Of a stretch of DNA of 20,235 bases, positions 2,566 through 16,957 are shown in pieces (the first letter of the stretch is position 1; each line of letters begins with the position of its first letter). Below the pieces are notes generated by a model. That model saw only the letters and a program-made list of their open reading frames with translations. It was not told the origin of the DNA and did not search any database. The translations under genes and the position numbers were made by a program. This DNA comes from a virus. Location: the IMG/VR virus record IMGVR_UViG_3300021197_001597, positions 1-20,235 of that record. One strand, given 5' to 3'.

Positions 2566-4932
2566 ATGAAGTTTAGTAAAAATGCTCAGGGTGCATTAGC
2601 TATAGCAAAAAAATACGCAGTTGACTTCAATAGTAAAAATGTAGGGACCGAGCACTTACTAATTGGACTCCTCAGCTGCGAAGATAAAACTTTAGTCGAT
2701 ACATTCAAAAAGTTAGACGTTGAACCTACTGTACTAGTAGAGGTAGTCGCATCTATTTTGAGTATTGATAATATTAATAAGAATAACCACAAACTATCTC
2801 CTGTGGTTAATTATACTCCTCGTGTAATAAAAATTATTGAATTCGCTAAAGGTATAGCTCAGAAACTTAGTAAAAATAATGTTGATGTTATACATTTATT
2901 TTTAAGTTTACTTTATGAAAATGACGGGGTCGCTGTTTCAATTCTCTTAGAGTATGGATTAGACTTTGTAACAGTCAAGAATGTCATGAAAAAGGAATTT
3001 GGAGAAGAGATAGACTCTAATCCCGATTTCGGGGACATACCAGAAGATATACAACAATACTTCAATAACATATCTAATCTTATAGAAAAAAATAAATTAG
3101 ATATACCTATAAATAGGAACGCTGACTATAATAAGTTCTTCATCACGTTAAGCAAAAAGCATAATACTAATATTATAGTTACAGGTGAACCAGGAGTGGG
3201 TAAGAGGAGCGTAGTGTATGAACTCGCAAGACGTATATATAAAAATCAAGCACCAGAAAATCTTTGTAATAAAGTTATACTAGAAATAAAATTAAAGAGT
3301 TTAATAGGTGGTACAAAATATAGAGGTGACTTTGAGTCAAGAATGGAGTCTATACATAACTTCTTAAAGAATAATACTAATGTTATTGTTGTCATTCCTG
3401 ATATTACTCTTATTGCTCGTATAGAAGGTACTAGTAATGTTGAAGAATACTTTAGTGAATTGTTTGATTTAGATGATATTAATTTTATAGGTATAGCTGA
3501 CTCTGATAATTATAGAAAATATTTAGAAGACAATAGTTATATTGTAAGTAATTTCGAAGTTATTAATATAAAGCCAACTAATAAAGAGGAAACTTTTGAT
3601 ATTGTCTCTAATAATATATATAGATATGAAAAATTTCATGAAATAAAATATAGACTTGATGTAATTAAGTATGCAATTGACTTGAGTACTAGATATTTAA
3701 CCGACCACTCTCAACCAACAGCATCTATAAATTTACTTGATGAGTGTGGGTCTTACCTACGGATAAAAAATAAAAATATAGATCAACAAGCTATTGAACT
3801 TGAAATTCGTAGAGATGATTTAGAAGATAGAAAGATTGAATTAGTTAAAGAGCATAAATTTGATGCAGCTATCAAAATTAAAAACGAACAAGAAATAATA
3901 GAATCAAAAATTTCAGACAAACCAAAAAAAACTAGTAGAAAAAAGAATACAGTAGACCTACAATTGCTTAAGGAGATAGTGTTTCATAAAACAGGTATAC
4001 CAGTAAGTGAGATTAACGGTGCATTACCTAACCTAGAAGATGCTATTAATAATATTAAAGGTAGTTATGTATCTCAGGTACAAGCTGTTGATACTATCTT
4101 TGAACACTTCAAGAGAGTTAAAACTGGATTACAGGACCCTAGTAAGCCATTAGGTAGTTTTTTATTCTTAGGACCTACTGGAGTAGGTAAGACGTATTTA
4201 TGCGAACTTATAAGCGAGCAATTCTTTCATCACAGAAATGCTTTTCTGAAGGTAGATATGTCGGAGTTTATGGATAAGCATTCTGTCAGTAAGCTTATAG
4301 GTTCACCTCCAGGATATGTAGGTTATAAAGATAAGTGTTTGTTGGGAGACTTCGTAAAAAATAATCCCTATAGTTTAATATTATTTGATGAGATTGAAAA
4401 GGCTCATCCAGATGTAGTTAATATATTTCTACAGATTCTAGATAAAGGAGATTTAACTGATAGTACTGGTAGAAAAATTAATTTTAAAAACACTATTATT
4501 GTATTCACTAGTAACATAGGTGCTGATTTGTTTGAAACAAAGACAATAGGTTTTACTCAAAGTGCTATGTCTACTACAGATCTAGAAAACAAACTACAAG
4601 GTTTCTTCAAACCAGAGTTTTTAAATCGTTTAGATGAGATTATAACATTTGATCATCTAGAGAATGAAGACATTCTAAATCTCGTATATATTTTAATTAA
4701 AAAATTCGTTGCAAAGTTAAAGAAAATTCATAAAATTAAATTTATAATAACTGATGAAGCTACAGACTACATCGCGAATCATGGATATTCAAGAAAATAC
4801 GGAGCTAGATTCCTCAAAAGATATATCCAAAAACATATTGAATGTATGGTAGCAACATTAATTATTGCAAATAAAGAAAAATTACAAAAAGTAACTTGCA
4901 AATTAGAAAATAATGAGCTAATTATTGAATGA
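2566..4932 (+). CDS. ClpC/ClpA-type AAA+ unfoldase with degenerate D1 ATPase
   Basis: This 788-residue protein has the full Clp Hsp100 layout. Two Clp-N repeats occupy about residues 1-145 (NVGTEHLLIGLL in the first). D1 follows (about 160-400), then a short UVR-like middle domain (about 405-450, ClpC type) and D2 (about 470-788). D2 is intact: Walker A GPTGVGKT 536-543, pore loop GYVG 583-586, Walker B LILFDE 604-609, sensor-1 Asn 650, Arg finger 688 in EFLNR, and GAR 746-748. An IGF tripeptide at 661-663 sits where ClpP-binding loops lie in ClpA/ClpC. D1 keeps the KYRG pore loop (251-254), but Walker A ends GKR instead of GKT, Walker B reads VVIPD instead of hhhDE, and the Arg-finger RR is SN (328-329). 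Inferred role: protein unfolding powered by D2, perhaps feeding host ClpP, since no protease gene is visible here. No convincing ribosome-binding site precedes the ATG. Confidence 0.92.
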   Translation: MKFSKNAQGALAIAKKYAVDFNSKNVGTEHLLIGLLSCEDKTLVDTFKKLDVEPTVLVEVVASILSIDNINKNNHKLSPVVNYTPRVIKIIEFAKGIAQKLSKNNVDVIHLFLSLLYENDGVAVSILLEYGLDFVTVKNVMKKEFGEEIDSNPDFGDIPEDIQQYFNNISNLIEKNKLDIPINRNADYNKFFITLSKKHNTNIIVTGEPGVGKRSVVYELARRIYKNQAPENLCNKVILEIKLKSLIGGTKYRGDFESRMESIHNFLKNNTNVIVVIPDITLIARIEGTSNVEEYFSELFDLDDINFIGIADSDNYRKYLEDNSYIVSNFEVINIKPTNKEETFDIVSNNIYRYEKFHEIKYRLDVIKYAIDLSTRYLTDHSQPTASINLLDECGSYLRIKNKNIDQQAIELEIRRDDLEDRKIELVKEHKFDAAIKIKNEQEIIESKISDKPKKTSRKKNTVDLQLLKEIVFHKTGIPVSEINGALPNLEDAINNIKGSYVSQVQAVDTIFEHFKRVKTGLQDPSKPLGSFLFLGPTGVGKTYLCELISEQFFHHRNAFLKVDMSEFMDKHSVSKLIGSPPGYVGYKDKCLLGDFVKNNPYSLILFDEIEKAHPDVVNIFLQILDKGDLTDSTGRKINFKNTIIVFTSNIGADLFETKTIGFTQSAMSTTDLENKLQGFFKPEFLNRLDEIITFDHLENEDILNLVYILIKKFVAKLKKIHKIKFIITDEATDYIANHGYSRKYGARFLKRYIQKHIECMVATLIIANKEKLQKVTCKLENNELIIE

Positions 4933-5904: not shown

Positions 5905-8151
5905 ATGAAAGTAAAGAAGAGGGATGGAGGACTCGAGGACTTTAATATCGAGAAGATACATGATGTATTATTCTGGGCGACAAAAGACATTAAAGGGGTT
6001 AACGTTAGTGATATCGAAATAAACACACAGCTTCAATTACATGATGGTATAGAATCAACTAAAATACATGAGGTTTTAATTTATGCAGCTGCAGATTTAA
6101 TAAGTGACACAACACCTAATTATCAGCATGTAGCAGCTAACTTGTTAAATTACTTTCTACGTAAGCAAGTTTTCGGGGTATCAGATAATATGCCTTCGTT
6201 GCTTAGTGTTATTAAGAAGAATATTGATTATGGAGTTTACGACACAGAGATCCTAGAGTTATACTCAGAGGATGAAATTGAGCAACTAGAGAGGGTCATC
6301 CGTCATAATAGAGATTATTTATTTGTATATGCAGGCCTTCAGCAGCTAGTAGATAAGTATCTACTTAAAGACCGAACTACTAGTAAAATTTACGAGACTC
6401 CTCAATACATGTATATGCTCATAGCTATGATTCTTAATAGTAATGAGACAGAAAATAGACTCAAAGCTGTAAAGAGTTTTTATAATGATATAAGTTCCTT
6501 TGAAATTTCGTTACCTACCCCTATCATGTGCGGGGTTAGGACTCCATCCCGCCAATATAGTTCTTGTACGTTGATTGATGTAGGGGATAGTCTCCCATCT
6601 ATATTTCATTCGAACACTGCTGTAGGTTATTATACAGCTAATAGAGCAGGTATTGGTTTAAACTTCGGACGTGTCCGAGGGGTAGGTTCGAAAATAAGAA
6701 ATGGTGAAGTTGTTCATACTGGAGTTATTCCTTTCCTCAAGATGTTTGAGAGTACTACTAAGTGTTGTACTCAAAACGGAGTGAGAGGAGGCTCCAGTAC
6801 AACTCACTTTCCTTTTTGGCATAAAGAGATTGAAGAGATATTAGTATTAAAAAATAATAGAGGTACAGATGATAATAGAGTTCGTAAGATGGATTATTCT
6901 GTTCAGTTTAATCGATTGTTCTATAAGAGGTTTGTACAAGATGAGAAGATAACAGTTTTCTCTCCTCATGAAGTACCAGACTTATATGATGCTTTTTATA
7001 CCGACACTGATGAGTTCATTGCATTATATGAAAAATATGAACGTAGTCGTAGTATATTCAAGAGAGATATACCTGCGCGTAAGCTTTTTATGCACTTCTG
7101 TCAAGAACGTATAGAAACAGGTCGTATGTATGTTATGAATATAGATAATACTAATGAACATAGTTCATTTACAGATCCTATCTATATGTCTAACTTGTGT
7201 CAAGAGATAACTCTACCAACTACTCCTATATCACATATAGATAGTGAAGAAGATGGTGAGATTGCTTTATGTATATTATCAGCTATTAATGTAGGGGCTA
7301 TAAGAAAGTTAAATGATCTTGAGAGTATATCATATAACATCGTTAAGTCTTTAGACTATATTATTGATAATCAATATTACCCCGTTAACGCCTCTAAAAA
7401 GATGCTTAAGAGGAGAAGTATAGGAGTAGGTGTTACAAATCTTGCATACTATTTAGCTAAGAATGGATTTTCATATGAAGATAAGGGAGCTATTAGTTTG
7501 GTTGATGAGTTAGCAGAGAATATACAATACTACTTACTTAAGGCTTCAGTACGTTTAGCTAAAGAGAGAGGTAAGTGTGAATGGTTTGAACATACAAAAT
7601 ATAGTAAAGGTATATTACCTATCGATACATACGCAAAAGAGGTAGATAATATATGTAAACGCAAACTAACTCATAACTGGGATGAGCTTAGAGCTGAGAT
7701 TAAAGAGCATGGTTTAAGAAATAGTACATTGACAGCTTTAATGCCCTGTGAGAGTTCTTCTTTAGTTACCAACTCTACTAATGGTATTGAGCCACCAAGA
7801 AGCTTGGTTACTATTAAGAAGTCTAAACAGGGTTTAATACCTCAAGTAGTGCCTGAGATTGCTAAGCTTAAAAATAAATATACACTTGCTTATGATATGA
7901 AGACTAATATTGGATATATTAATATATGCGCTGTCTTACAGAAATATTTCGATCAAGCAATATCTGCTAATCATTATTATAATTTTGCGAAATATGAAGA
8001 AGGTAATTTGCCTATGTCTGTTGTAGCTAAGGATATTTTATATTCATATAAAGTAGGATTGAAGACTTTATATTACGCTAATACAGACGATGGGAAGACT
8101 GACACTGTAGAAGAAGATAGTGATTGTGCTGGAGGAGCCTGTAAATTATAA
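5905..8151 (+). CDS. nrdA: Class Ia ribonucleoside-diphosphate reductase, alpha subunit
   Basis: This 748-residue protein aligns well over its whole length with E. coli and T4 NrdA. It reduces ribonucleoside diphosphates to deoxy forms for phage DNA synthesis, together with NrdB. An ATP-cone is present at the N-terminus (KRDGGLEDFNIEKIH, about 5-95). Catalytic residues are all visible: Cys221 (redox), Asn430, Cys432 (thiyl radical) and Glu434 in SNLCQE, Cys456 (redox partner), Tyr723-Tyr724 (radical transfer), and the C-terminal Cys741/Cys746 pair that accepts electrons from thioredoxin or glutaredoxin. The gene is uninterrupted, with no intron or intein, unlike some T4-family RNR genes. No good Shine-Dalgarno site precedes the ATG; the upstream stretch TATAGAACGTATAT might carry a -10 element. 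nrdB follows after 38 bases. Confidence 0.98.
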   Translation: MKVKKRDGGLEDFNIEKIHDVLFWATKDIKGVNVSDIEINTQLQLHDGIESTKIHEVLIYAAADLISDTTPNYQHVAANLLNYFLRKQVFGVSDNMPSLLSVIKKNIDYGVYDTEILELYSEDEIEQLERVIRHNRDYLFVYAGLQQLVDKYLLKDRTTSKIYETPQYMYMLIAMILNSNETENRLKAVKSFYNDISSFEISLPTPIMCGVRTPSRQYSSCTLIDVGDSLPSIFHSNTAVGYYTANRAGIGLNFGRVRGVGSKIRNGEVVHTGVIPFLKMFESTTKCCTQNGVRGGSSTTHFPFWHKEIEEILVLKNNRGTDDNRVRKMDYSVQFNRLFYKRFVQDEKITVFSPHEVPDLYDAFYTDTDEFIALYEKYERSRSIFKRDIPARKLFMHFCQERIETGRMYVMNIDNTNEHSSFTDPIYMSNLCQEITLPTTPISHIDSEEDGEIALCILSAINVGAIRKLNDLESISYNIVKSLDYIIDNQYYPVNASKKMLKRRSIGVGVTNLAYYLAKNGFSYEDKGAISLVDELAENIQYYLLKASVRLAKERGKCEWFEHTKYSKGILPIDTYAKEVDNICKRKLTHNWDELRAEIKEHGLRNSTLTALMPCESSSLVTNSTNGIEPPRSLVTIKKSKQGLIPQVVPEIAKLKNKYTLAYDMKTNIGYINICAVLQKYFDQAISANHYYNFAKYEEGNLPMSVVAKDILYSYKVGLKTLYYANTDDGKTDTVEEDSDCAGGACKL

Positions 8152-8152
8152 A

Positions 8153-8182
8153 TTGCACTTACATACTATAGAATATTATAAT
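8153..8182 (+). promoter_or_regulatory. Possible sigma70-type promoter for nrdB
   Basis: TTGCAC (8153-8158) and a perfect TATAAT (8177-8182) are separated by 18 bases in the nrdA-nrdB gap. The -35 match is weak (three of six bases). The expected start, about 7 bases after TATAAT, falls at or next to the nrdB ATG at 8190, so this transcript too may be nearly leaderless. Confidence 0.4.
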
Positions 8183-8189
8183 ACTTGAG

Positions 8190-9263
8190 ATGAATAAACA
8201 AATTATTAATATTGAGAATGTTGATACAACGAAAGAGCCTTTATTTTTCGGGCAGGGATTAAACTTACAGCGGTATGATAAGCACCGTTATAAGAAAATT
8301 TACGACTTATTCCTACAACATTTAAGTTTCTTTTGGAGACCAGAAGAAGTTAGTCTAGAAAAGGAACGCGCTGATTTTGAAAAGCTAACTGATCATCAGA
8401 AATTTATTTTTACTAAAAATCTGGGTTATCAGATATTACTAGACTCAATTCAGTCGAGGGGTATTAGTCATTTATTGACGGATTGTAGTAACCCTGAACT
8501 AGAAGCGTTTGCAAAAACCTGGGAGTTCTTCGAGACTCTACATAGCTATTCATATACATATATTATTAAAAACGTATATCCTAATCCTTCAGATGTTTTT
8601 GATAATATTTTATCCGACCCTGAAATTATTAAACGCACAACATCAGTTACGAAGTACTATGATGATTTAATTAATGGAATGCCTAATGATAGTATTAAAG
8701 ATAGGAAGAAAAAATTATATCTTACTTTAGTTAGTATCAATATTCTTGAAGGCATTAGATTTTATGTATCATTTGCTTGCTCTTATTGTTTTGCTCAGAA
8801 TAAAACTATGGAAGGTAACGCAAAGATTATATCTCTTATTAATAGAGACGAAAACTTGCATTTAGCTTTCACTCAAAATATACTCAAGTATCTCAAGAAT
8901 GAAGACTCAGAGGGCTTTACAAAGATAGTAGAAGAATGTAAAGATATTGTCAGTAAGATGTTCAAGGATGCTGCAGAAGAAGAAATGGACTGGGCAAGAT
9001 ATCTATTTAAAGATGGATCTATGCTTGGCTTGAATGATGAGATTCTTATTCAGTACATGAAGCATTTATGTAACAAGCGATCCAAGGCTGTAGGTGTTGG
9101 TAATATTTTTGAAGAGACACCTAATCCTATTCTTTGGATTAAGAACTGGACAGAATCTAAGCATGTTCAAGTAGCTCCTCAAGAGACGCAAATAGAAACA
9201 TATAAAGTGGGTTCATTCAAACAAGATACATCTGATACAGATTTCTCTGATTTTAGTTTTTAA
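8190..9263 (+). CDS. nrdB: Class Ia ribonucleoside-diphosphate reductase, beta subunit
   Basis: This 357-residue protein is homologous to E. coli and T4 NrdB, which holds the diiron-tyrosyl radical cofactor and passes the radical to NrdA. All metal and radical residues are seen: Asp85 (LLDSIQSR), Glu115 and His118 (ETLHS), radical Tyr122, Glu187 (ILEGIRFYVSF), and Glu221 and His224 (RDENLHL). It is therefore a classical tyrosyl-radical enzyme. It is slightly shorter than E. coli NrdB (376) because the loop around residues 160-172 is reduced. The C-terminal tail ends in an acidic, Phe-containing segment (DTDFSDFSF), consistent with docking to NrdA. Its 3' end overlaps the convergent gene on the other strand by 11 bases. 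Confidence 0.98.
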   Translation: MNKQIINIENVDTTKEPLFFGQGLNLQRYDKHRYKKIYDLFLQHLSFFWRPEEVSLEKERADFEKLTDHQKFIFTKNLGYQILLDSIQSRGISHLLTDCSNPELEAFAKTWEFFETLHSYSYTYIIKNVYPNPSDVFDNILSDPEIIKRTTSVTKYYDDLINGMPNDSIKDRKKKLYLTLVSINILEGIRFYVSFACSYCFAQNKTMEGNAKIISLINRDENLHLAFTQNILKYLKNEDSEGFTKIVEECKDIVSKMFKDAAEEEMDWARYLFKDGSMLGLNDEILIQYMKHLCNKRSKAVGVGNIFEETPNPILWIKNWTESKHVQVAPQETQIETYKVGSFKQDTSDTDFSDFSF

Positions 9264-9606
9264 TTTTACTGAGATCTATTTCAGGTAATGGTTTTTCAAT
9301 CCTAAGTTTACTTAATGCCTCGTTTTGAATAACTAGTTTATTACCACTTACTATTTTATTGTCGACCACATTGTATACGAAGAAGACTGTTTTAAGTAAC
9401 CCTACTCTAATTATACGACTTGGTCGACCGTCTACAAATACAACATCATCTGTATTATAATCACCACCACAGAATACAGCTAATGAAGCTGCTAAACTCT
9501 TAATAGTTGATTGAAACATTATACCAACAAAGCCAATAATAAACATCCAGCCGTATTCACCTATCAGGTGCTCTGCAGTATTTTTTATTTCCAATGCTTC
9601 TCCCAT
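9253..9606 (-). CDS. Mini MscS-like mechanosensitive-channel-domain protein
   Basis: This 117-residue protein has a single hydrophobic helix (about 20-47) followed by a small beta domain (about 48-107). The order of motifs resembles the core of MscS: a pore-helix-like segment with FQSTIKSLAASLAVF, then GDYNTDDVVFVDGRPSRI in place of the MscS GEYVDLGGVAGTV stretch, and GNKLVIQNEAL where MscS has IVIPNGKII. The first two transmembrane helices and the C-terminal vestibule of MscS are missing. If folded as in MscS it would form a minimal membrane ring; whether it can gate is unknown. It is on the minus strand, convergent with nrdB, and divergent from the GIY-YIG gene across a 70-base gap. A late-promoter-like octamer with one mismatch lies 5 bases before its ATG. 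Homology is judged by eye only. Confidence 0.5.
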   Translation of the reverse strand: MGEALEIKNTAEHLIGEYGWMFIIGFVGIMFQSTIKSLAASLAVFCGGDYNTDDVVFVDGRPSRIIRVGLLKTVFFVYNVVDNKIVSGNKLVIQNEALSKLRIEKPLPEIDLSKIKN

Positions 9607-9611
9607 ACTAA

Positions 9612-9619
9612 TATTTAAT
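9612..9619 (-). promoter_or_regulatory. Late-promoter-like octamer for the MscS-like gene
   Basis: On the minus strand, ATTAAATA differs by one base from AATAAATA. It is followed by TTAGT and then the ATG at 9606, the same five-base spacing as other units here. The mismatch lowers confidence. Confidence 0.4.
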
Positions 9620-9663
9620 ATTATTGACTGATACTTTAATTTTTAAAAAAGTTGAGTAACATG

Positions 9664-9671
9664 AATAAATA
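9664..9671 (+). promoter_or_regulatory. T4-type late promoter octamer (AATAAATA)
   Basis: AATAAATA is followed by CTTAT and then the GTG start of the GIY-YIG gene at 9677. The five-base gap repeats the pattern seen at the other late promoters and supports the GTG as start. Confidence 0.65.
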
Positions 9672-9676
9672 CTTAT

Positions 9677-10036
9677 GTGTCATTAGTAGAAGGATATCTA
9701 TATCTTATAACCAATAGTGCTTGGCCTGGTTGGATAAAGGTAGGTACAACAAAAAATATTAAACACCGCGTTAGGTCGTATCAGACTGGTTCCCCCTTTA
9801 GAGATTATCAAGTAGTGTATTCTGTCAAACACCCTGACTATCTCTTAGCTGAAAAAAAGATACGTCAACAGATGGAATATTTTGCATCTGATATTCGTAA
9901 TGAATGGTTTAAAGTAGATTTACAAATCGCTAAAGACAGACTTATAGAGCAGCTAGATAACTACTTCTACGGAGAGTGTGATCAAAGTCAAAAATATAAT
10001 AACTATAAATACGAAAAACAAGTAGAGCTTGTTTAA
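9677..10036 (+). CDS. GIY-YIG / T5orf172-like nuclease-domain protein
   Basis: This 119-residue protein starts at GTG; the overlapping ATG at 9675 is in another frame and stops at once. The GIY-YIG fold is recognised from GYLYLITN (6-13, the GIY strand), WIKVGTT (19-25, the YIG strand), a conserved Arg in the RVRSYQTG segment (31-38), and the AEKKIRQQM helix with Glu59. NEWFKV (75-80) is typical of the T5orf172/MUG113 branch. Such proteins are free-standing phage nucleases, often of unknown target. Its place next to nrdAB recalls the homing endonucleases common near T4-family RNR genes, but no intron is present. It has its own late promoter, so it acts late or is packaged. The 3' end overlaps the minus-strand gene by 4 bases. 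Confidence 0.75.
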   Translation: MSLVEGYLYLITNSAWPGWIKVGTTKNIKHRVRSYQTGSPFRDYQVVYSVKHPDYLLAEKKIRQQMEYFASDIRNEWFKVDLQIAKDRLIEQLDNYFYGECDQSQKYNNYKYEKQVELV

Positions 10037-10173
10037 TTATATTTACAATGTTTCTTACCTGTTAGGTAAGGTCTTTTACATTTAGTACCTTTGACATGTA
10101 CTCTGCCACATCTTCCGCAACATGTTGCTTTAGTTTGTTTTTCAATAATTTTATATAATTCGTTAAATTTCAT
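10033..10173 (-). CDS. Tiny Cys-rich (zinc-finger-like) protein
   Basis: This short gene encodes 46 residues. It begins MKFNELYKIIEKQ and continues with a Cys/His-rich half: CCGRCG at 18-23, Cys32, and HC at 42-43, with many Lys and Arg between them. The spacing could bind one zinc ion through Cys18 or Cys19, Cys22, Cys32 and His42 or Cys43. The basic character suggests nucleic-acid binding. Its ATG comes one base after the stop of the minus-strand gene 10175-10495, so both are one unit. Its N-terminus (FNELYKIIE) resembles those of several other proteins in this window (see the findings). Its 3' end overlaps the GIY-YIG gene by 4 bases. Confidence 0.7.
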   Translation of the reverse strand: MKFNELYKIIEKQTKATCCGRCGRVHVKGTKCKRPYLTGKKHCKYN

Positions 10174-10174
10174 A

Positions 10175-10495
10175 TCAGCAATGGTAGTTTATAAATCTTT
10201 GAGCTGCTTTCGCAGTATTATTACCTTTATTCTTTTGTTTAGACTTTAAGGACTTAGCTTTAGAACAAGTTATCTTACCTTTTATTTGTTTTTTAAGTAT
10301 ACCTGGTCGGACTGGATCATGTACTCCTTCTTTCGCAGATATTTTTTTAGCTTGTTTCTTCATCTGCTTCCTGTATTTAGGGTCATTTTTCCACTTACTA
10401 GACGGGTTTCCCTTCTTTTTTCTTATATTATACCATAGTCCTTTATTTTCTTCAGATATAATATTGTTATATAATTTATCAAATTCGTTAGTCAC
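10175..10495 (-). CDS. Small basic protein with capsid-targeting-like N-terminus
   Basis: This encodes 106 residues from a GTG start, which is set by the late promoter ending five bases upstream; the ATG at 10497 is followed directly by TGA in its own frame. The first 17 residues (FDKLYNNIISEE) resemble a T4-type capsid-targeting sequence with a possible cleavage site after ISE. The rest is strongly basic (KKKGNPSSKW, KKQAKKISAKEG) with a distinct end (AAQRFINYHC) that looks conserved. A DNA-binding, head-packaged protein is a reasonable inference; the enzymatic role, if any, is unknown. It is the first gene of a two-gene minus-strand unit with the Cys-rich gene, and is divergent from the unit at 10541. 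Confidence 0.65.
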   Translation of the reverse strand: MTNEFDKLYNNIISEENKGLWYNIRKKKGNPSSKWKNDPKYRKQMKKQAKKISAKEGVHDPVRPGILKKQIKGKITCSKAKSLKSKQKNKGNNTAKAAQRFINYHC

Positions 10496-10500
10496 ATAAT

Positions 10501-10508
10501 TATTTATT
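10501..10508 (-). promoter_or_regulatory. T4-type late promoter octamer (AATAAATA), minus strand
   Basis: Minus-strand AATAAATA is followed by ATTAT and then the GTG at 10495. It stands back to back with the plus-strand late promoter at 10528 in a 45-base divergent gap. Confidence 0.7.
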
Positions 10509-10527
10509 AGTAAAATACTAAAAGTAT

Positions 10528-10535
10528 AATAAATA
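10528..10535 (+). promoter_or_regulatory. T4-type late promoter octamer (AATAAATA)
   Basis: AATAAATA is followed by ATTAT and then the ATG at 10541, identical in motif and spacing to the sites at 10501 and 14045 on the other strand. It drives the 10541-13658 unit. TATAAT (10525-10530) overlaps it and could also act as a sigma70 -10. Confidence 0.7.
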
Positions 10536-10540
10536 ATTAT

Positions 10541-11131
10541 ATGTCAGCATATGATACTAATGATTTACATGATATTGGATCTTTATTAGATAAAGTCAAT
10601 AAACAAAAAATAGCGACACCGCAGGATATATCCAATCAAGTACGTAGGTATATAAATGTACAAGAGGAGGAGAAGGATAATAATGTTGTAGAAGAAGGTT
10701 TGGATCATGTAGGTAAAGAAGACGGTGATATAGATAATGATGGGGACAAGGATAAAACAGACAAATATCTTCTTAAAAAGCGTAAAGCAATATCTAAAGC
10801 ATTAAAAGAAGCTGGGATTACTATATCTGAATATGCTGATTATTATAATGATAAGTTAGAATATATACCTCAGATAGCCTCTAAAGTACATGCAGTTGAT
10901 ATAGATGAAGAGAGTGGAGAAATAACATTAGAGTTTACCGCTAAAGACGAAAATACATATTACATAAAGTATAATACTAAAACAGAAGAGTATATTGATA
11001 TTAATATATCTGAACCAGGTGAGTCTAATTATAATAAAGAAATGACTCAAGATGAATTTTTTCAAACAGATATATCTGCAGCTGTAGATAATGAAATAGA
11101 TAGCTTAAGTAGGTTTGTATATGAAGACTGA
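10541..11131 (+). CDS. Acidic protein with EF-hand/dockerin-like calcium loop
   Basis: This 196-residue, strongly acidic protein has three parts. An N-terminal helical region (1-55) precedes a loop at 63-74 reading DIDNDGDKDKTD, which fits the calcium-binding pattern D-x-D-x-D-G with acidic residues at positions 1, 3, 5, 7, 9 and 12. A basic helix (YLLKKRKAISKALKE, 76-90) follows directly. The C-terminal half is an acidic alpha/beta region. EF-hand-like loops followed by a basic helix occur in structural proteins of marine T4-like phages as far as I recall, so a virion or prohead-core role is inferred. It is the first gene of a four-gene late unit, and its end overlaps the next gene by 11 bases. 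It lacks the capsid-targeting-like N-terminus of its neighbours. Confidence 0.55.
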   Translation: MSAYDTNDLHDIGSLLDKVNKQKIATPQDISNQVRRYINVQEEEKDNNVVEEGLDHVGKEDGDIDNDGDKDKTDKYLLKKRKAISKALKEAGITISEYADYYNDKLEYIPQIASKVHAVDIDEESGEITLEFTAKDENTYYIKYNTKTEEYIDINISEPGESNYNKEMTQDEFFQTDISAAVDNEIDSLSRFVYED

Positions 11132-11456
11132 TAAAATATTAAATGAATTATTAGAGGCTTGTGATGCATGTTCCCATGGGGAGGAACCACAAGATGGTAA
11201 TAAAGATAATCATGAGTCTCGTATGGCAAAGAGTGACTTATATAACATTGCTGAAAACGCGAAGATGCTACATGATATGCTAGAAGATGATTATCCTTTA
11301 GAAGATTGGGCAGAAGCTAAAATTACGAAAGCAGCTGATTATGTACGTTCAGTGTTTCAATATCTCAAGTATGAGATAGAGCGAGAAGGTGAACCTGACG
11401 AAAAAGAACATACTAAGATATATATCGCTACTGACCCACGTACATTAGGTTTATAG
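11121..11456 (+). CDS. Small acidic helical protein, possible virion component
   Basis: The ATG at 11121 gives 111 residues; a TTG two codons earlier is less likely. The protein starts MKTDKILNELLEA, a hydrophobic helix ending in LLE followed by Ala, which fits a T4 prohead-protease site. A second part (about 35-90) forms two predicted helices with ESRMAKSDLYNIAENAKMLH and LEDWAEAKITKAADYVRSV. This segment resembles a helical motif that I recall from virion proteins of marine T4-like phages, but I cannot name a family. It sits between the EF-hand-like protein and the nucleotidyltransferase, in the same late unit. Confidence 0.55.
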   Translation: MKTDKILNELLEACDACSHGEEPQDGNKDNHESRMAKSDLYNIAENAKMLHDMLEDDYPLEDWAEAKITKAADYVRSVFQYLKYEIEREGEPDEKEHTKIYIATDPRTLGL

Positions 11457-11457
11457 T

Positions 11458-12261
11458 ATGAATAAAATACGTAATTTTTTAAAATTCTTCGAGGGTAGAA
11501 CTTATTATAATAAAACTCTTCATCCTAATTTTTGGGATGGTGAGGCTTTTGATGAGTCAATTAGAATGGCAATTGTTAAGATTGTTAGTGATTTCTTAAA
11601 AGAGGATGAGCATATAGATGAAGATATCATCGAAGATATACAACTAACTGGTTCTATAGCTAATTATAACTACTCAGAGAAATCCGATCTTGACGTCCAT
11701 ATACTATTAGACTTTGCTGATATTAACAAGGATGAAGATCTAGTTAAAAGGGCTTTAGACGGTAAGCGCTTTATTTGGAACATAAAGCATGATATAAATC
11801 TCAACGGTCATGAAGTAGAGTTATATTTTCAAGATATTCATGAACCACATACTGCATCTGGTTTATTCAGCATACAAGATAATAAATGGATTAAAAAACC
11901 TGTTTATAATAAGCCTGAAATAGATCATAGAGATGTTGTACGTAAGTCTGAGGAATATAAAAAAGAAATAAGATCATTGAGTGAGATAATTGCTGAGTTG
12001 AGTGATGAGAAAGAACTTGCATTAGTTAACAAAAGAGCTAAGAATCTTAAGAAACGTATTATGAAGATGCGTAGAGATGGTTTATCTAGTAAGGGTGAGT
12101 TTTCTGTAGAGAATTTAGCTTTTAAGAATTTAAGAGATTCAGACTATATTGGTAAATTAAATGATATAATCATAAGATCATACGATCATATGTTTAATAA
12201 AGAAATATTAGGCGAGAAAGATTTAAGTACATGGCTGAAAGAAAGATGGTGCGATCGATGA
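11458..12261 (+). CDS. Pol-beta-type nucleotidyltransferase
   Basis: This encodes 267 residues, beginning one base after the previous stop codon. The Pol-beta superfamily signature is clear: LTGSIANYNYS (63-73) followed by SDLDVHILLDF (76-86), so Gly65-Ser66 and the metal-binding Asp77 and Asp79. HEVELYF (118-124) supplies the third carboxylate (Glu119 or Glu121). The family transfers a nucleotide to RNA, DNA, protein or small molecules; the substrate here cannot be told. A basic helical region (190-215, rich in Lys and Arg) could bind nucleic acid. The N-terminus MNKIRNFLKFFEG resembles a capsid-targeting sequence with cleavage after FFE. The end overlaps the next gene by ATGA. Together with the ligase-like protein at 14276 it suggests a nucleic-acid repair or modification function. 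Confidence 0.8.
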   Translation: MNKIRNFLKFFEGRTYYNKTLHPNFWDGEAFDESIRMAIVKIVSDFLKEDEHIDEDIIEDIQLTGSIANYNYSEKSDLDVHILLDFADINKDEDLVKRALDGKRFIWNIKHDINLNGHEVELYFQDIHEPHTASGLFSIQDNKWIKKPVYNKPEIDHRDVVRKSEEYKKEIRSLSEIIAELSDEKELALVNKRAKNLKKRIMKMRRDGLSSKGEFSVENLAFKNLRDSDYIGKLNDIIIRSYDHMFNKEILGEKDLSTWLKERWCDR

Positions 12262-13658
12262 AAACATTTAGACGATTTTTTTATAATTGTTTATTAGAAT
12301 CGAGTTTAGATAATATGGCTACAGCAGGAGCTATAGACTCTCAGTTTGGTGATTCTTTACTAAAATATTACACAGATAATAAACCTAATATTTCTAACGT
12401 TGTTTTTTCAGCAAAAGATGGTTCAAAATATACTATAAAGGATTTTGTACAAATGGTTAATAGTAATAATTCAGATAGACCGTATACAATAACTATTTCT
12501 CCTACCGGTATATGTAAACTTAGAACACCTTATAACTTAAGAATAGCCGAGTGGAAAGCTGAGAGTCAATTCAATATGGGCAGAGGAAATAAACTTCCCG
12601 TCAATACTATGAAAATCCTTGCTATATATGAGTTGTTAGAAAAAACTAACGGTAAAATTATAAAGAAAGATACAACAGCCGCGGGTATAGAATATGAAGA
12701 AAGTCAAGTATTAGCATTAAATGATGCAATAAAAAGTTTAAATCCTCAAATAGGTTTTTTAAATCTTATTGACCAAAACGGGAAACAAACAGGAATAAAG
12801 TTTGATAAAGCTGTTATGATTGACGGTAATCCGAAAGCTGATTTTGCTTTATCTAAAGATGGTAAGGAAGTTTATTGGATAAGTTATAAAGAGGGGGATT
12901 ATTTTAAACAAGATAAAGAAACTGGAGAAATGGTTATTTCTCAAAAGGTACCTTTTCAGCAATACGGGGAGTTTAAAAAACTATATAAAAAGGAAACAAA
13001 AATAGATGATAATTCTATAATTCCATTAGCTGTGAATAAATTTTGTAGCGGTATAGCAAATATATTAGCTAATAATTATAATATACCCTCTTTTGAAGGT
13101 AGCACTAAGGAGTTAGTACAATTTTTATCTAAAAAAAGAAATGGCAATAAGCTCGAGAAACTAGGTGTCAATATCGATAAATGGAAAAGAGGTTCAATAA
13201 GAGAGTCTAATATTACTAAATTTCACTTTGTACCGTCAGCTTTTTATTGTTTTCATGATTTTTATGAAGCTAATCCATCCAGCCCGCTTTCTCTTTTTGC
13301 ATTGAAGGGTATTTATGGTAATGACTATGAACCAGGCGCGGAATTTGGAATTAATAATGTAAATATTTTGCTCCAAACAACGGTAGATCAGATAAGTCTC
13401 AAAGAAATATTAAACTACGGTGACCATTTAGGTTATATGATAGACCCTGGCCAGCGAGGCCATATACTTAAAAATCCTGATTTACCGCAATCATCATTAT
13501 ATGTACCTGTATTATTCGGTAGATATACAGCTGACCAATATTTTGCTTTTATTAATACTGAAACAGGCAAAAAAGAAGCTATATTGAATACAAGACTATT
13601 TGTTTTCCCTAAAGGTAGAGTACCCAAGAATTCAGTATCTATAGATATTGAATTATAA
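12258..13658 (+). CDS. Possible PD-(D/E)XK-type nuclease, capsid-targeting-like N-terminus
   Basis: I take the ATG at 12258, which overlaps the upstream stop as ATGA, giving 466 residues. An ATG at 12231 would add nine residues but hides the typical MKTFRRFFYNCLLES start. That start resembles T4 internal-protein targeting peptides (MKTYQEF...), with a likely cleavage after LLE. In the centre, NPKADFALSKDG (191-202), YWISYKEG (206-213) and FQQYGEF (233-239) match the spacing of the Asp, S-x-K and Gln motifs of PD-(D/E)XK nucleases (Asp195, Ser209-Tyr-Lys211, Gln234/235). The usual Glu of ExK is Ser, so activity is not assured. The N- and C-terminal regions are not recognised. It is the last gene of the late unit; its stop abuts the convergent gene's stop with no gap. 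Confidence 0.45.
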   Translation: MKTFRRFFYNCLLESSLDNMATAGAIDSQFGDSLLKYYTDNKPNISNVVFSAKDGSKYTIKDFVQMVNSNNSDRPYTITISPTGICKLRTPYNLRIAEWKAESQFNMGRGNKLPVNTMKILAIYELLEKTNGKIIKKDTTAAGIEYEESQVLALNDAIKSLNPQIGFLNLIDQNGKQTGIKFDKAVMIDGNPKADFALSKDGKEVYWISYKEGDYFKQDKETGEMVISQKVPFQQYGEFKKLYKKETKIDDNSIIPLAVNKFCSGIANILANNYNIPSFEGSTKELVQFLSKKRNGNKLEKLGVNIDKWKRGSIRESNITKFHFVPSAFYCFHDFYEANPSSPLSLFALKGIYGNDYEPGAEFGINNVNILLQTTVDQISLKEILNYGDHLGYMIDPGQRGHILKNPDLPQSSLYVPVLFGRYTADQYFAFINTETGKKEAILNTRLFVFPKGRVPKNSVSIDIEL

Positions 13659-14039
13659 TTACCACATACGACAGGACCAATAACGAGCTTTAGTCTTAGG
13701 TCCTGGATTATCACAATTGTGTCTAGCTCTGAATGACTTACGTCGTTTGGGGTTAGACTTTTTTATACGCATCGTTTTTTCGCCTCTACGTTTCGCGCTT
13801 GTTCCACCGTGCCCGAAGTTTACTTTTCTTACATTTCCAGTCTTAGGGTCTTTTACATAAACTTTAAACTTTTTGACATCACCTCTCATAGGTTTATTCA
13901 ACTTAACCTTACGTCCTCTATACTCTGCTTCCTCGAAAACATCTTCATCTATAATTTCAAACTTAAGAGTACCGAGATATTCTTCTTTTTGATAAACAGG
14001 TACTGTAATATTTTCGTAGAAATCTTTAAAGCTTAGCAT
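13659..14039 (-). CDS. Small basic virus-type protein with Cys/Trp-rich C-terminus
   Basis: This encodes 126 residues. The N-terminus (MLSFKDFYENI) resembles the targeting-like starts of its neighbours. A middle part (KKFKVYVKDPKTGNVRKVNFG, about 56-76) is beta-rich and basic. It is followed by a distinctive end: PKRRKSFRARHNCDN, then ARYWSCRMW, with Cys109, Cys123 and aromatic residues. As far as I recall, related C-termini occur in proteins of marine T4-like phages and some large DNA viruses, with no established function. Metal or nucleic-acid binding is plausible. The gene has its own perfect late promoter and is transcribed against the flow, ending back to back with the nuclease-like gene. 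Confidence 0.7.
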   Translation of the reverse strand: MLSFKDFYENITVPVYQKEEYLGTLKFEIIDEDVFEEAEYRGRKVKLNKPMRGDVKKFKVYVKDPKTGNVRKVNFGHGGTSAKRRGEKTMRIKKSNPKRRKSFRARHNCDNPGPKTKARYWSCRMW

Positions 14040-14044
14040 ATAAT

Positions 14045-14052
14045 TATTTATT
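14045..14052 (-). promoter_or_regulatory. T4-type late promoter octamer (AATAAATA), minus strand
   Basis: Minus-strand AATAAATA is followed by ATTAT and then the ATG at 14039, identical to the sites at 10501 and 10528. The same 13 bases separate the divergent ATGs at 14039 and 14053. Confidence 0.7.
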
Positions 14053-14262
14053 ATGGAGGATTCATTTTATGACATTTTTGTTTTTGGCTTTAGAGTACAA
14101 ATTATGCCTAATGTGTTTATAATCTATGATGACAATAAATGTATAGAAGATCAAACAATACCTGATAAGATTATAAAATATTGCATAAATGAGGGACTAT
14201 GTGATGAGAGTGTATCTCATAATACATATGATTTTAAAGTCGAGATAATGCGTAAAAAGTAA
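14053..14262 (+). CDS. Small protein of unknown function
   Basis: This encodes 69 residues starting MEDSFYDIFVFGF. It is partly hydrophobic at the N-terminus, then has a short region with single Cys residues at about 31, 45 and 51, ending in basic residues. It has no ribosome-binding site. A plus-strand TATAAT at 14039-14044 lies about 9 bases ahead of the ATG, so it may also be expressed with almost no leader. I do not recognise a family; small size and isolation make it less certain than its neighbours. Confidence 0.5.
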   Translation: MEDSFYDIFVFGFRVQIMPNVFIIYDDNKCIEDQTIPDKIIKYCINEGLCDESVSHNTYDFKVEIMRKK

Positions 14263-14268
14263 TAAATA
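14261..14268 (+). promoter_or_regulatory. T4-type late promoter octamer (AATAAATA)
   Basis: AATAAATA overlaps the stop codon of the previous small gene and ends 7 bases before the ATG at 14276. With T4 spacing the leader would be only about two bases. Confidence 0.65.
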
Positions 14269-14275
14269 ATAATAT

Positions 14276-15523
14276 ATGATACTTTTTGAGCAATACTTCA
14301 AGCTTTATGAAGACGCAGGCCCTAATAAGCATTTAACTCACTTAGAAGAGCTTGTACTTACTAATAAGAGAGAAGGAGCTCAAAGGGCTATTAATTATCT
14401 GAGTTCTCTCTCTGAGATTTTAGATAGTAACACTGACAAGGCAGTGAACGCGACAGTTAAGTATGACGGTGCACCGGCTGTTGTCGTTGGTAGAGATCTT
14501 GATGGTAAATTCTTTGTTGGTAGTAAGTCTGTATTCAATACAGACCCAAAGATAAATTACAGTATTAAGGATATAAAAACAAATCATGCTGCATCTGCTG
14601 GATTAATTGATAAGCTAGTACAAACATTTGTACATTTTAAAGATTCTAACTTCAATGGTGTATATCAAGGAGACTTTTTATTTGATAATGAGATAAAAGA
14701 TACATCTTCTATTGACGGAGAAGAGCATGTTACATTCAAACCTAATACAATTGTATATGCAGTACCTGTAAATAGTAAAGAAGGTCAGGATATTTTAAAT
14801 TCTAATATAGGAGTTGTGTTTCATACTGAATATGAAATGCAGAAAGATGAAGAAGGTAAGATAAGATTTAGTACGAAAAAATTTGGAGTTGATGTAAGTA
14901 CTCTAGACCCTGGTCCTAAAGTTTATGTTAAGGATGCATATTTTGAAAATGATTCTGGTTATATAACTTTAACAGATGAGGAAACTGTTTTAGTTAATAG
15001 TTTAATATCTAAGTCATCTGAACTAGTAGAAGAAATTAATTTCGATAGTATTGATGATCGTATTTACTTAGGTTTGAATACATATATTAATACAGAAATA
15101 AGACAAGGGGAATTTCTTAAAGATATTGACGTATCATTTCAGCAGTTCGTAGAATGGGTTGAAGGTAGACTAGATCGTAAGATTGATTCTCTTAAGAGTG
15201 AGAAAGGTAAAGCTAAAGCAACAGAAGCAAAAACTCAAATGTTGAGCTTAGTAGAAGCTGGTAAACAAGATATTGTAAATATTCTTAGATTACAAATATT
15301 AATTAAGCAAGGTAAAGATATATTTATACAAAAGTATAATAATATTATGAAGGGGGTAAGTATGAAGCATTATTTATTTAATGCTGAAGGAGACCTTGTT
15401 GTTACAGAGCCTGAGGGTTATGTTGCTATAGACCAAACAGGAAATGCAATCAAGTTTGTTGATAGACTTGAATTTAGCAAAGCTAATTTTGCAATCAGCT
15501 CGGATCAGAAGTTTAAAAAATAG
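14276..15523 (+). CDS. Ligase-like (KxDG) nucleotidyltransferase-fold protein
   Basis: This 415-residue protein carries a KYDGAP motif (62-67) in a strand-like setting (NATVKYDGAPAVVVG), as in motif I of ATP-dependent DNA/RNA ligases and capping enzymes, where the Lys is adenylylated. Other ligase-like blocks follow in order: FVGSKSVFN (80-88, like motif Ia), VYQGDFLFD (129-137, like motif III) and IGVVFHTEY (178-186, like motif IV). A clear motif V is not found by eye. The C-terminal part (about 290-350) is charged and helical. The N-terminus MILFEQYFKLYEDAG resembles a capsid-targeting sequence with a possible cut after LYE. Related proteins occur in marine T4-like phages as far as I recall; the substrate is unknown. 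A non-catalytic ligase-fold protein is the alternative. Confidence 0.6.
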   Translation: MILFEQYFKLYEDAGPNKHLTHLEELVLTNKREGAQRAINYLSSLSEILDSNTDKAVNATVKYDGAPAVVVGRDLDGKFFVGSKSVFNTDPKINYSIKDIKTNHAASAGLIDKLVQTFVHFKDSNFNGVYQGDFLFDNEIKDTSSIDGEEHVTFKPNTIVYAVPVNSKEGQDILNSNIGVVFHTEYEMQKDEEGKIRFSTKKFGVDVSTLDPGPKVYVKDAYFENDSGYITLTDEETVLVNSLISKSSELVEEINFDSIDDRIYLGLNTYINTEIRQGEFLKDIDVSFQQFVEWVEGRLDRKIDSLKSEKGKAKATEAKTQMLSLVEAGKQDIVNILRLQILIKQGKDIFIQKYNNIMKGVSMKHYLFNAEGDLVVTEPEGYVAIDQTGNAIKFVDRLEFSKANFAISSDQKFKK

Positions 15524-15556: not shown

Positions 15557-15736
15557 ATGGCATCTAAGAAACCTAAGAAAAGATATTCCTTATATCGTCA
15601 AGGCGTTATAGACGCTATTGATCACCTAGATATTCTTATCCCAGATGCTTTCGGTAGTGATCCTCGAGCTAGTAGATATGAAATAGAAGAGAAAATTAAG
15701 TATATTCAAAATAAACTTAAAGAGTTGATCGTATGA
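15557..15736 (+). CDS. Small basic protein of unknown function
   Basis: This short gene encodes 59 residues. It starts MASKKPKKRYSLYRQG, a basic tail, followed by a helical region (IDAIDHLDILIPDAF) and a charged amphipathic helix (YEIEEKIKYIQNKLKELI). Its stop overlaps the start of the next gene as ATGA (15733-15736), and a late-promoter-like octamer stands just upstream, which supports a real gene. It heads the glycosyltransferase-like cluster. No known motif is seen. Confidence 0.65.
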   Translation: MASKKPKKRYSLYRQGVIDAIDHLDILIPDAFGSDPRASRYEIEEKIKYIQNKLKELIV

Positions 15737-16314
15737 AGTTTATTTTTTGTTTCTATGATTTAAATTACACTCCTGAATTCCTTAAGTCCTGGGTTAACCT
15801 ATCTACTACTCTCAACAAGAAAGAAATACCATATAATATATCTACCGGGGATAGCTGCAATGCATTTTATGCTAAACAAAAGGCCCTCAAGGGTAGTATA
15901 CTACAGGGTAGTAATCAAAATCCATTCCAAGGTCAATGTAATTATGAATATATAGTTTTTCTGAGTGGTAGTATTTTATTTAATAACAATAATTTTATTA
16001 AATTATATAATAATATATACTCTAATGATTTAAATTTTTTATCTGCTAAGGTAGATAGTAGATATAAATTAACAAATAAAAAACAGAATGACTTTGAGTT
16101 AGCTGAATACCTAGAATTTGATATGGTCATAGTAAAGTATGGTGTTATAGAGAAGTTATCATACCCGTGGTTTAGACCTTGGAAATCCCGAAATAAAAAA
16201 GAGCAAACATTTACGGATATTGATATCTGTAAACGTATACAAAAAGAAGCTAATGTTAATTTATTAATTGACCCTAGTGTGAGCATAAAACGGAAAGATA
16301 TTGTTTATGTATAA
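15733..16314 (+). CDS. Glycosyltransferase-like paralog lacking the DxD motif
   Basis: This 193-residue protein is clearly homologous to the next gene product. They share an NPF/KPF segment followed by a beta strand, a KYG/KKG-V-x-E/Q-L-x-YPWF-x-P block (here about 135-149) and a C-terminal IDP/VDP segment. The position of the metal-binding DDD in the partner reads SGS here (78-80, FLSGSILF), and the partner's MEDVSF acidic motif is FTDIDI. A GT-A fold is likely, but sugar transfer by the usual metal-dependent route is doubtful. It could be a regulatory or substrate-binding partner of the intact paralog, or have changed function. It overlaps the preceding gene by 4 bases and the following one by 8. 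Confidence 0.55.
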   Translation: MKFIFCFYDLNYTPEFLKSWVNLSTTLNKKEIPYNISTGDSCNAFYAKQKALKGSILQGSNQNPFQGQCNYEYIVFLSGSILFNNNNFIKLYNNIYSNDLNFLSAKVDSRYKLTNKKQNDFELAEYLEFDMVIVKYGVIEKLSYPWFRPWKSRNKKEQTFTDIDICKRIQKEANVNLLIDPSVSIKRKDIVYV

Positions 16315-16957
16315 TGTTATGATATGTATGCCAGGGACAAGCTTTAGTAGTAAGACAATAACCTGTGTAAGTAATCTATTAAGACATTTTCACAAACAGG
16401 GTATACAATATAAATTTAGTTCTACTTATTCAAGAAACATATATGAAACTAGGAATATGTGTTTGTTAGGAGAACCTTCGAAAGGTAAAGACCAGAAACC
16501 ATTTGATGAAGGTGAATATACTCATATTTTGTGGATAGATGATGATATAATTTTTAATATTAAAGATATTGAGAGGTTATTTAAAGCGGATAAAGATATG
16601 ATTTCTGGTCTTTATTTAATGGCCTCGGGGGAGAACTACGCAGTTGTAGAGGATTGGGATGAAGAGTTTTTTGCTCGTAACGGTTACTTTCATTTTCTAT
16701 CTAAAGAAGATTTAAAAAATAAAGATTCTATTTTTAAAGTCTCTTATGTAGGTTTTGGTTTTCTATTAATTAAAAAAGGAGTATTTGAGCAACTTAAATA
16801 TCCTTGGTTTGAACCTAGATATATAGAAATACAATCGTGTGAAGATTTTTGTATGGAAGATGTATCTTTTTGTCTTGACTGTAAGGATAATAATATACCT
16901 ATATATGTTGACCCTCAGATTAAAGTAATTCACTGTAAGACCGCATACTTAAAATGA
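16307..16957 (+). CDS. GT-A-type glycosyltransferase-like protein
   Basis: The ATG at 16307 overlaps the upstream gene by 8 bases and gives 216 residues; a TTG at 16301 is less likely. The motifs are those of small GT-A enzymes: an N-terminal strand (NVMICMPG), ETRN (47-50), HILWIDDDIIF (73-83) with the metal/nucleotide-sugar DDD at 78-80, a YVGFGFLLIKKGVFE block, YPWFEP, and MEDVSFCLD followed by VDPQIKVIHC. The family uses nucleotide-sugars to glycosylate proteins, DNA or glycans. Lying just before the fibre genes and after head-type genes, it may modify a virion protein or the phage DNA; the sequence does not decide. The next gene overlaps it by ATGA. Confidence 0.75.
   Translation: MYNVMICMPGTSFSSKTITCVSNLLRHFHKQGIQYKFSSTYSRNIYETRNMCLLGEPSKGKDQKPFDEGEYTHILWIDDDIIFNIKDIERLFKADKDMISGLYLMASGENYAVVEDWDEEFFARNGYFHFLSKEDLKNKDSIFKVSYVGFGFLLIKKGVFEQLKYPWFEPRYIEIQSCEDFCMEDVSFCLDCKDNNIPIYVDPQIKVIHCKTAYLK

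Follow-up and report, generated by a model that had tools for sequence, protein, structure and literature searches.

What do seven neighbouring phage genes have in common if their products are unrelated except at the very start? The question is raised by a 20.2-kb virus fragment (IMG/VR record IMGVR_UViG_3300021197_001597, positions 1 to 20,235, the window of this analysis), which carries ribonucleotide reductase genes, a gene for a Clp-like ATPase and, at 10.0-15.5 kb, the gene cluster considered here. A first-pass annotation of this DNA had noticed that seven proteins of the cluster begin with a short, Phe/Tyr/Leu-rich helix ending in hydrophobic-x-Glu, had likened it to the capsid-targeting start of the phage T4 internal proteins, and had proposed that the cluster encodes head-packaged cargo injected with the DNA. 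We consider it very likely that the region is a late-expressed cassette of T4-type, capsid-targeted cargo belonging to a T4-like marine phage. Three independent lines of evidence support the cargo proposal: a hypervariable slot in the cluster keeps the N-terminal tag while exchanging the body behind it, proteins with the same tag occur in the virions of the cultured phages S-CREM2 and S-SM1, and close relatives encode a gp21-type protease. The genes of the cluster, named below by the position at which they start, are as follows.

10033..10173, minus strand: 46-residue Cys4 mini-protein; tag-like residues 1-11 MKFNELYKIIE (nucleotides 10141-10173)
10175..10495, minus strand: 106-residue basic protein with GLWxNI module, GTG start; tag-like residues 1-15 MTNEFDKLYNNIISE (nucleotides 10451-10495)
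10541..11131, plus strand: 196-residue protein with KEDGDIDNDGDKDKTDKYLLKKRKAI module; untagged
11121..11456, plus strand: 111-residue protein, the weakest tag candidate; MKTDKILNELLE (nucleotides 11121-11156)
11458..12261, plus strand: 267-residue predicted Pol-beta-type nucleotidyltransferase; tag MNKIRNFLKFFE (nucleotides 11458-11493)
12258..13658, plus strand: 466-residue occupant of the hypervariable, putative cargo slot; tag MKTFRRFFYNCLLE (nucleotides 12258-12299)
13659..14039, minus strand: 126-residue protein with promiscuous RARHNCDNPGPKTKARYWSC C-terminal module; tag MLSFKDFYE (nucleotides 14013-14039)
14053..14262, plus strand: 69-residue conserved small protein within the cluster; untagged
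14276..15523, plus strand: 415-residue DUF6267 protein with a predicted RNA-ligase-like fold and invariant KxDG; tag MILFEQYFKLYE (nucleotides 14276-14311) immediately before the domain

N-termini in the register of the T4 internal proteins

All seven N-termini were found on the strands and at the positions first described, that of gene 10495 (residues 1 to E, VTNEFDKLYNNIISE) being read from a GTG start that had gone unstated, and the bodies are unrelated as claimed, with differing Pfam and PHROG matches or none. In T4 IPIII, targeting depends on residues 4 and 7 and processing on residues 8 and 10, and Asp at position 10 stops cutting while leaving targeting unaffected (PMC9026906). The likeness to T4 is a specific one, but the closest model is not the start that had been quoted: IPII and IPIII begin MKTYQEFIAEA, and the start of IPI, MKTFKEFTSTTTPVSTITEA (MKTFKEF), is nearer to the cluster. 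The T4 register, with aromatics at 4 and 7, is exact in 12258 (F4/F7), 14039 (F4/F7) and 14276 (F4/Y7), nearly so in 11458 (I4/F7), and displaced by one residue in 10173 and 10495. As to the L/I-x-E cleavage consensus, FFE and FYE had rightly been singled out as misfits; LYE does fit, so that five of the seven match strictly (IIE, ISE, LLE, LLE and LYE).

Could such starts arise by chance? In AT-rich genomes many proteins begin with a hydrophobic helix that a Glu follows, and when the pattern is defined loosely (hydrophobic-x-E at residue 8-17, three or more hydrophobics) it turns up in 20% of random internal windows; because it is so common it is weak evidence for any single gene, and 11121 and 10495 are unremarkable alone. 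As a group, seven of the nine genes at 10.0-15.5 kb carry it (binomial p 3.5e-4), whereas among the other 14 genes of the window 3 do (Fisher p 0.012); the two cluster genes without the loose pattern are 10541 and 14053. The strict register tells more. Across the viral loci that we fetched for comparison (numbered with L below) it stands at 57 of 1121 N-termini where 1.4 would be expected, an approximately 40-fold over-representation borne by 18 groups of unrelated bodies; it also marks virion proteins of S-CREM2 and is conserved across the occupants of the slot. Coincidence is therefore a very improbable explanation for the cluster as a whole, unlikely for 12258, 14039 and 14276 and possible for 11121. 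Among the fetched loci there is also a family starting MKHFRDYLIESE (L060:2033-2641), present in eight tagged copies, that matches phrog_14802, 'virion structural protein'.

A slot that keeps the tag and exchanges the body

In about 28 contigs, genes for the nucleotidyltransferase and DUF6267 proteins flank a hypervariable slot, with the 14039/14276 side as its far border. The flanks are up to 98% identical while the bodies between them are unrelated: the occupants fall into six body groups, with the first 25 residues cut off, blastp connects no group with another, and profile comparison by hhalign finds links within groups only. By contrast, 27 of the 32 distinct occupants conform to the T4 register, and the start M[KIS][TSP]FKx[FY]F, with the Glu next at 9 or 10, is shared by nearly all of them (the MKTFKxFF..E type); in 12258, the occupant here, the Glu is at 14. 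The slot of L003 and L004 holds a homing endonuclease without a tag, the occupant in L035 starts differently or has a damaged start, and L005 carries three tagged genes in tandem. The nucleotidyltransferase of L001 is 98% identical to 11458, yet the slot bodies differ; the slot bodies of L001 and L023 are 98.9% identical, and the L023 nucleotidyltransferase is only 65% identical to 11458. As judged from these alignments, the slot behaves like the T4 internal protein genes, with a constant tag and changing cargo, and the relatives support the view that the tag is a removable unit, the N-terminus being kept as the body is exchanged.

Other modules of the cluster are likewise found in new combinations. 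MKTFKEFFTE immediately precedes the GLWANI module in L072; in L003 and L005 the 10173 module is fused behind a 10495 homologue and there lacks a tag-like start of its own; and the C-terminal module of 14039 forms the end of many unrelated long proteins.

A shared start beside an exchanged body might also be a mere recombination joint, in which the conserved slot DNA ATGAAAACATTTAAACAATTTTTT serves as crossover point and the encoded amino acids carry no signal. The first 24 nucleotides of the slot genes are indeed similar at the DNA level too. This explanation nevertheless seems to us scarcely credible, given that F4, F7 and the Glu are preserved through synonymous and conservative changes and that the register is common to unrelated genes beyond the slot and in S-CREM2, S-SM1 and T4.

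Tagged proteins in the virions of cultured relatives

The virion proteome of S-CREM2 lists 52 proteins (PMC10665884), and comparison with the protein sequences of OR473000 identified five that carry the tag: gp6, gp13, gp14, gp136 and gp154. Non-structural virion proteins start in the T4 register with MKDFDSFLEE (SAM hydrolase), MKRFDAFLTEE (kinase) and MKNFSSFLTEA (cytidylyltransferase, gp154), as do two more of this class, gp13 with MKDLHSFLTE and gp136 with MQTFSMFFSE. With residue classes that were set after some of the S-CREM2 and S-SM1 sequences had been seen, the strict register is found in 5 of the 28 virion proteins that are non-structural or unknown, versus 1 of 167 undetected proteins (p 2e-4), and the T4-core pattern within the first 18 residues in 5 of 28 versus 0 of 167 (p 4e-5). 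Loose motif definitions gave no significant difference in S-CREM2 (p 0.07 and 0.15), so bare hydrophobic-x-E is too common to be usable as a marker. A position matrix derived from the tags of the slot occupants finds gp6, gp14, gp136 and gp154 and misses 10173 and 10495. The cytidylyltransferase of S-SM1, which has been detected in the virion (PMC3037559), starts MKKFSAFLNEA.

Most of the S-CREM2 virion proteins in question (SAM hydrolase, APH-like kinase, cytidylyltransferase and Cas9-like nuclease) thus start with a tag in the T4 register. The overlap with our cluster lies in gp156, a detected virion protein (PMC10665884) homologous to 11458 (E 6e-42); otherwise the cargo set differs, and the DUF6267 homologue gp87 is untagged and absent from the virion list. 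In the Cas9-like nuclease, gp12 (L148, record 7704-10313), RFASFMAEAA occupies residues 18-27 rather than the very start. The full text of the S-CREM2 paper (PMC10665884) nowhere mentions capsid targeting or internal proteins, and the literature that we searched, subscription papers being outside its coverage, did not describe capsid targeting sequences for any marine phage.

Protease, late promoters and a model for cargo delivery

Cutting after the Glu had been attributed to a protease of the gp21 type. The 20.2-kb fragment itself is without such a gene; in its closest large relatives, G001 (200.8 kb) and G002 (127 kb), a gp21-type S77 protease gene is present and adjoins the gp23-family capsid gene, whose product has LRE or LKE, i.e. 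an LxE site, in its N-terminal region. The cyanophage late promoter is NATAAATA, with the core ATAAATA (PMC2984593). This core directly precedes 6 of the 23 genes of the stretch against 0.47 expected, including four in the cluster:

10501..10507, minus strand: ATAAATA late-promoter-like site before gene 10495
10529..10535, plus strand: ATAAATA late-promoter-like site before gene 10541
14045..14051, minus strand: ATAAATA late-promoter-like site before gene 14039
14262..14268, plus strand: ATAAATA late-promoter-like site before gene 14276

Late expression, as these sites predict it, would suit head cargo.

We propose the following model. The tag, a short helix at the N-terminus that is hydrophobic or aromatic at or near positions 4, 7 and 8 and leads into hydrophobic-x-E, would pull each protein into the prohead core, where the gp21-type protease probably cuts after the Glu. 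DNA would then be packaged around the cargo, and both may enter the next host together. Between the nucleotidyltransferase and 14039/14276, the slot would accept interchangeable cargo of which the tag alone is kept. Such a system resembles T4 IPI, IPII and IPIII in the aromatics at 4 and 7 and the Glu after hydrophobic-x (PMC9026906, PMC3012670), in the unrelated bodies behind a kept tag, and in the gp21-type protease of related genomes. It differs in its larger, enzyme-like cargo, in the gathering of that cargo in a single cluster whose swap slot holds one to three genes, and in the many tags that end in FFE or FYE and have their Glu at 9 or 10. T4 Alt offers a precedent, being an enzyme that is carried in the head, undergoes processing by gp21 and is injected (PMC9026906); no homology between Alt and the cluster proteins was seen, in a comparison that did not extend to the Alt N-terminus.

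Several observations weigh against this model. FFE and FYE depart from the published L/I-x-E rule, and cleavage is predicted only. Protein 11121 does not fit the register (its residue 4 is D, and the tag Glu is replaced by D in the L014 and L030 homologues), and the S-CREM2 virion protein gp156, with its start MKKLISE, misses the strict register. In several relatives the F..FFE motif of the nucleotidyltransferase sits behind a module of 30-130 residues. The p-values given above are optimistic, since the tag patterns were adjusted after the data had been seen and the fetched loci were picked by homology to the cluster. Finally, the virion evidence comes from the cultured relatives S-CREM2 and S-SM1 only, from which we infer the packaging of the proteins encoded here. 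On balance the evidence supports the cargo model for the 12258 slot protein, the nucleotidyltransferase, 14039 and the DUF6267 protein; for 10173 and 10495 the model is plausible, and for 11121 it is weak.

What might the cargo do?

By its sequence 11458 is a Pol-beta-type nucleotidyltransferase, with the active-site motif LTGS...SDLDVH, in which G65, S66, D77 and D79 are invariant; its match to Pfam NTP_transf_2 (E 0.0037) is under the cut-off. F7 and E12 of its tag are invariant among 21 homologues. The internal F..FFE motif of the relatives mentioned above could be either a cutting site that has been kept or a piece of the enzyme fold. That the tag itself belongs to the fold was judged less likely: the starts of distant homologues are unalignable yet tag-like (MRKFSQLLE in Cr30, MNLESFLE in DSL-LC03, MNLKTLVE in Molly), and in the homologue from a 735-kb phage the domain lies within a longer protein with no such motif adjoining. 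That uncultured phage (LR756501.1) matches 11458 at the DNA level better than any cultured phage does, with 71% identity over about 320 bases (11590-11910 versus LR756501.1:458117-458431). In L025 and L027 the nucleotidyltransferase has a long odd insert between MPAKLDRCVK and FKQFFE that includes an ambiguous base, possibly an assembly chimera.

Protein 14276 matches PF19782 from residue 17, right behind the tag. Its predicted model has a mean predicted local distance difference test score (pLDDT) of 81.8, with residues 1-18 below 50, and the KxDG of motif I (K62, D64, G65) is invariant in 27 homologues. In fold comparison RNA ligases match best (Z 8.6 to 7.4; top match 184 residues at a root-mean-square deviation of 4.0). 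The DUF6267 protein resembles Naegleria Rnl and T4 Rnl1/Rnl2 in the fold of its model and the invariant KxDG but differs in its 10-16% identity and a weak Foldseek match (E 0.045), and we infer from the model an RNA-ligase-like enzyme. Cultured relatives with DUF6267 include a Methylophilales Melnitz phage and HTVC008M, in which the protein begins MYNDLLVE. In L065 (302-2209) an HxGH-type nucleotidylyltransferase region (KPPTKGHF) forms the C-terminal part of a fusion with DUF6267, and therefore both enzymes may act together.

For the slot bodies, Pfam and NCBIfam gave nothing above cut-off. Sequence searches of the analysis against solved structures brought no meaningful match. The slot proteins of L005 and L008 match the PADLOC REase_II profile (3e-13 and 1e-12). 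Protein 12258 itself has no match to that profile or to cultured phage records, and its structure model is of low confidence (pLDDT 38.7). It has a GxPKxDFxL...ISxKxG motif in common with the L005 and L008 proteins and is probably a distant, nuclease-like relative of these restriction-enzyme-like proteins.

Do such proteins act in the next host or in the head? The N-termini might send core or scaffold parts into the prohead, to stay there or leave, making these proteins head-assembly factors rather than injected effectors. The small basic proteins 10173, 10495 and 14039 resemble DNA-binding core proteins, their modules recur within long marine phage proteins, and T4 IPIII also influences head assembly (PMC9026906). 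The slot protein, the nucleotidyltransferase and the DUF6267 protein, however, look like enzymes, and free exchange of the slot content ill suits an essential assembly role. We regard head assembly as a possible but rather unlikely alternative to the delivery of cargo. T4 IPI and IPIII counteract host defences (PMC3012670, PMC9391042), and the RNA-ligase-like, nucleotidyltransferase and nuclease-like proteins would probably serve early counter-defence or host takeover. One may go further and speculate, with considerable doubt, that they form an injected kit for the first minute of infection: the ligase-like protein and the nucleotidyltransferase would repair RNA or DNA cut by the host at entry, and the exchangeable restriction-type nuclease would act against competitors or the host, the cargo being swapped as a unit behind a common tag that also works within fusion proteins.

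Mechanism and tag belong to a known kind; what appears to be new for marine phages is the cargo together with the swap slot. For most genes of marine T4-like phages we know of no assigned role. A tag that can be read from sequence and that marks virion proteins in cultured relatives could list the proteins that such phages carry into the cell, the scene of the first contest between phage and host; with the published proteomes of S-CREM2 and S-SM1 the idea can be tested directly.

Neighbouring genes

Rfam and tRNA scans of the 20.2-kb stretch gave no matches. Next to the ribonucleotide reductase genes lies a gene for a 788-residue ClpA/ClpB-type AAA+ protein with a Clp_N domain (2566-4932), an unusual chaperone for a phage. 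A GIY-YIG-type T5orf172 protein gene adjoins the cluster (9677-10036), and another GIY-YIG-looking gene occupies the slot of L003 and L004. Past the cluster, two neighbouring genes of unknown family (15733-16957) are perhaps glycosyltransferase-like; the analogue in G001 starts MTIVFNLFE.

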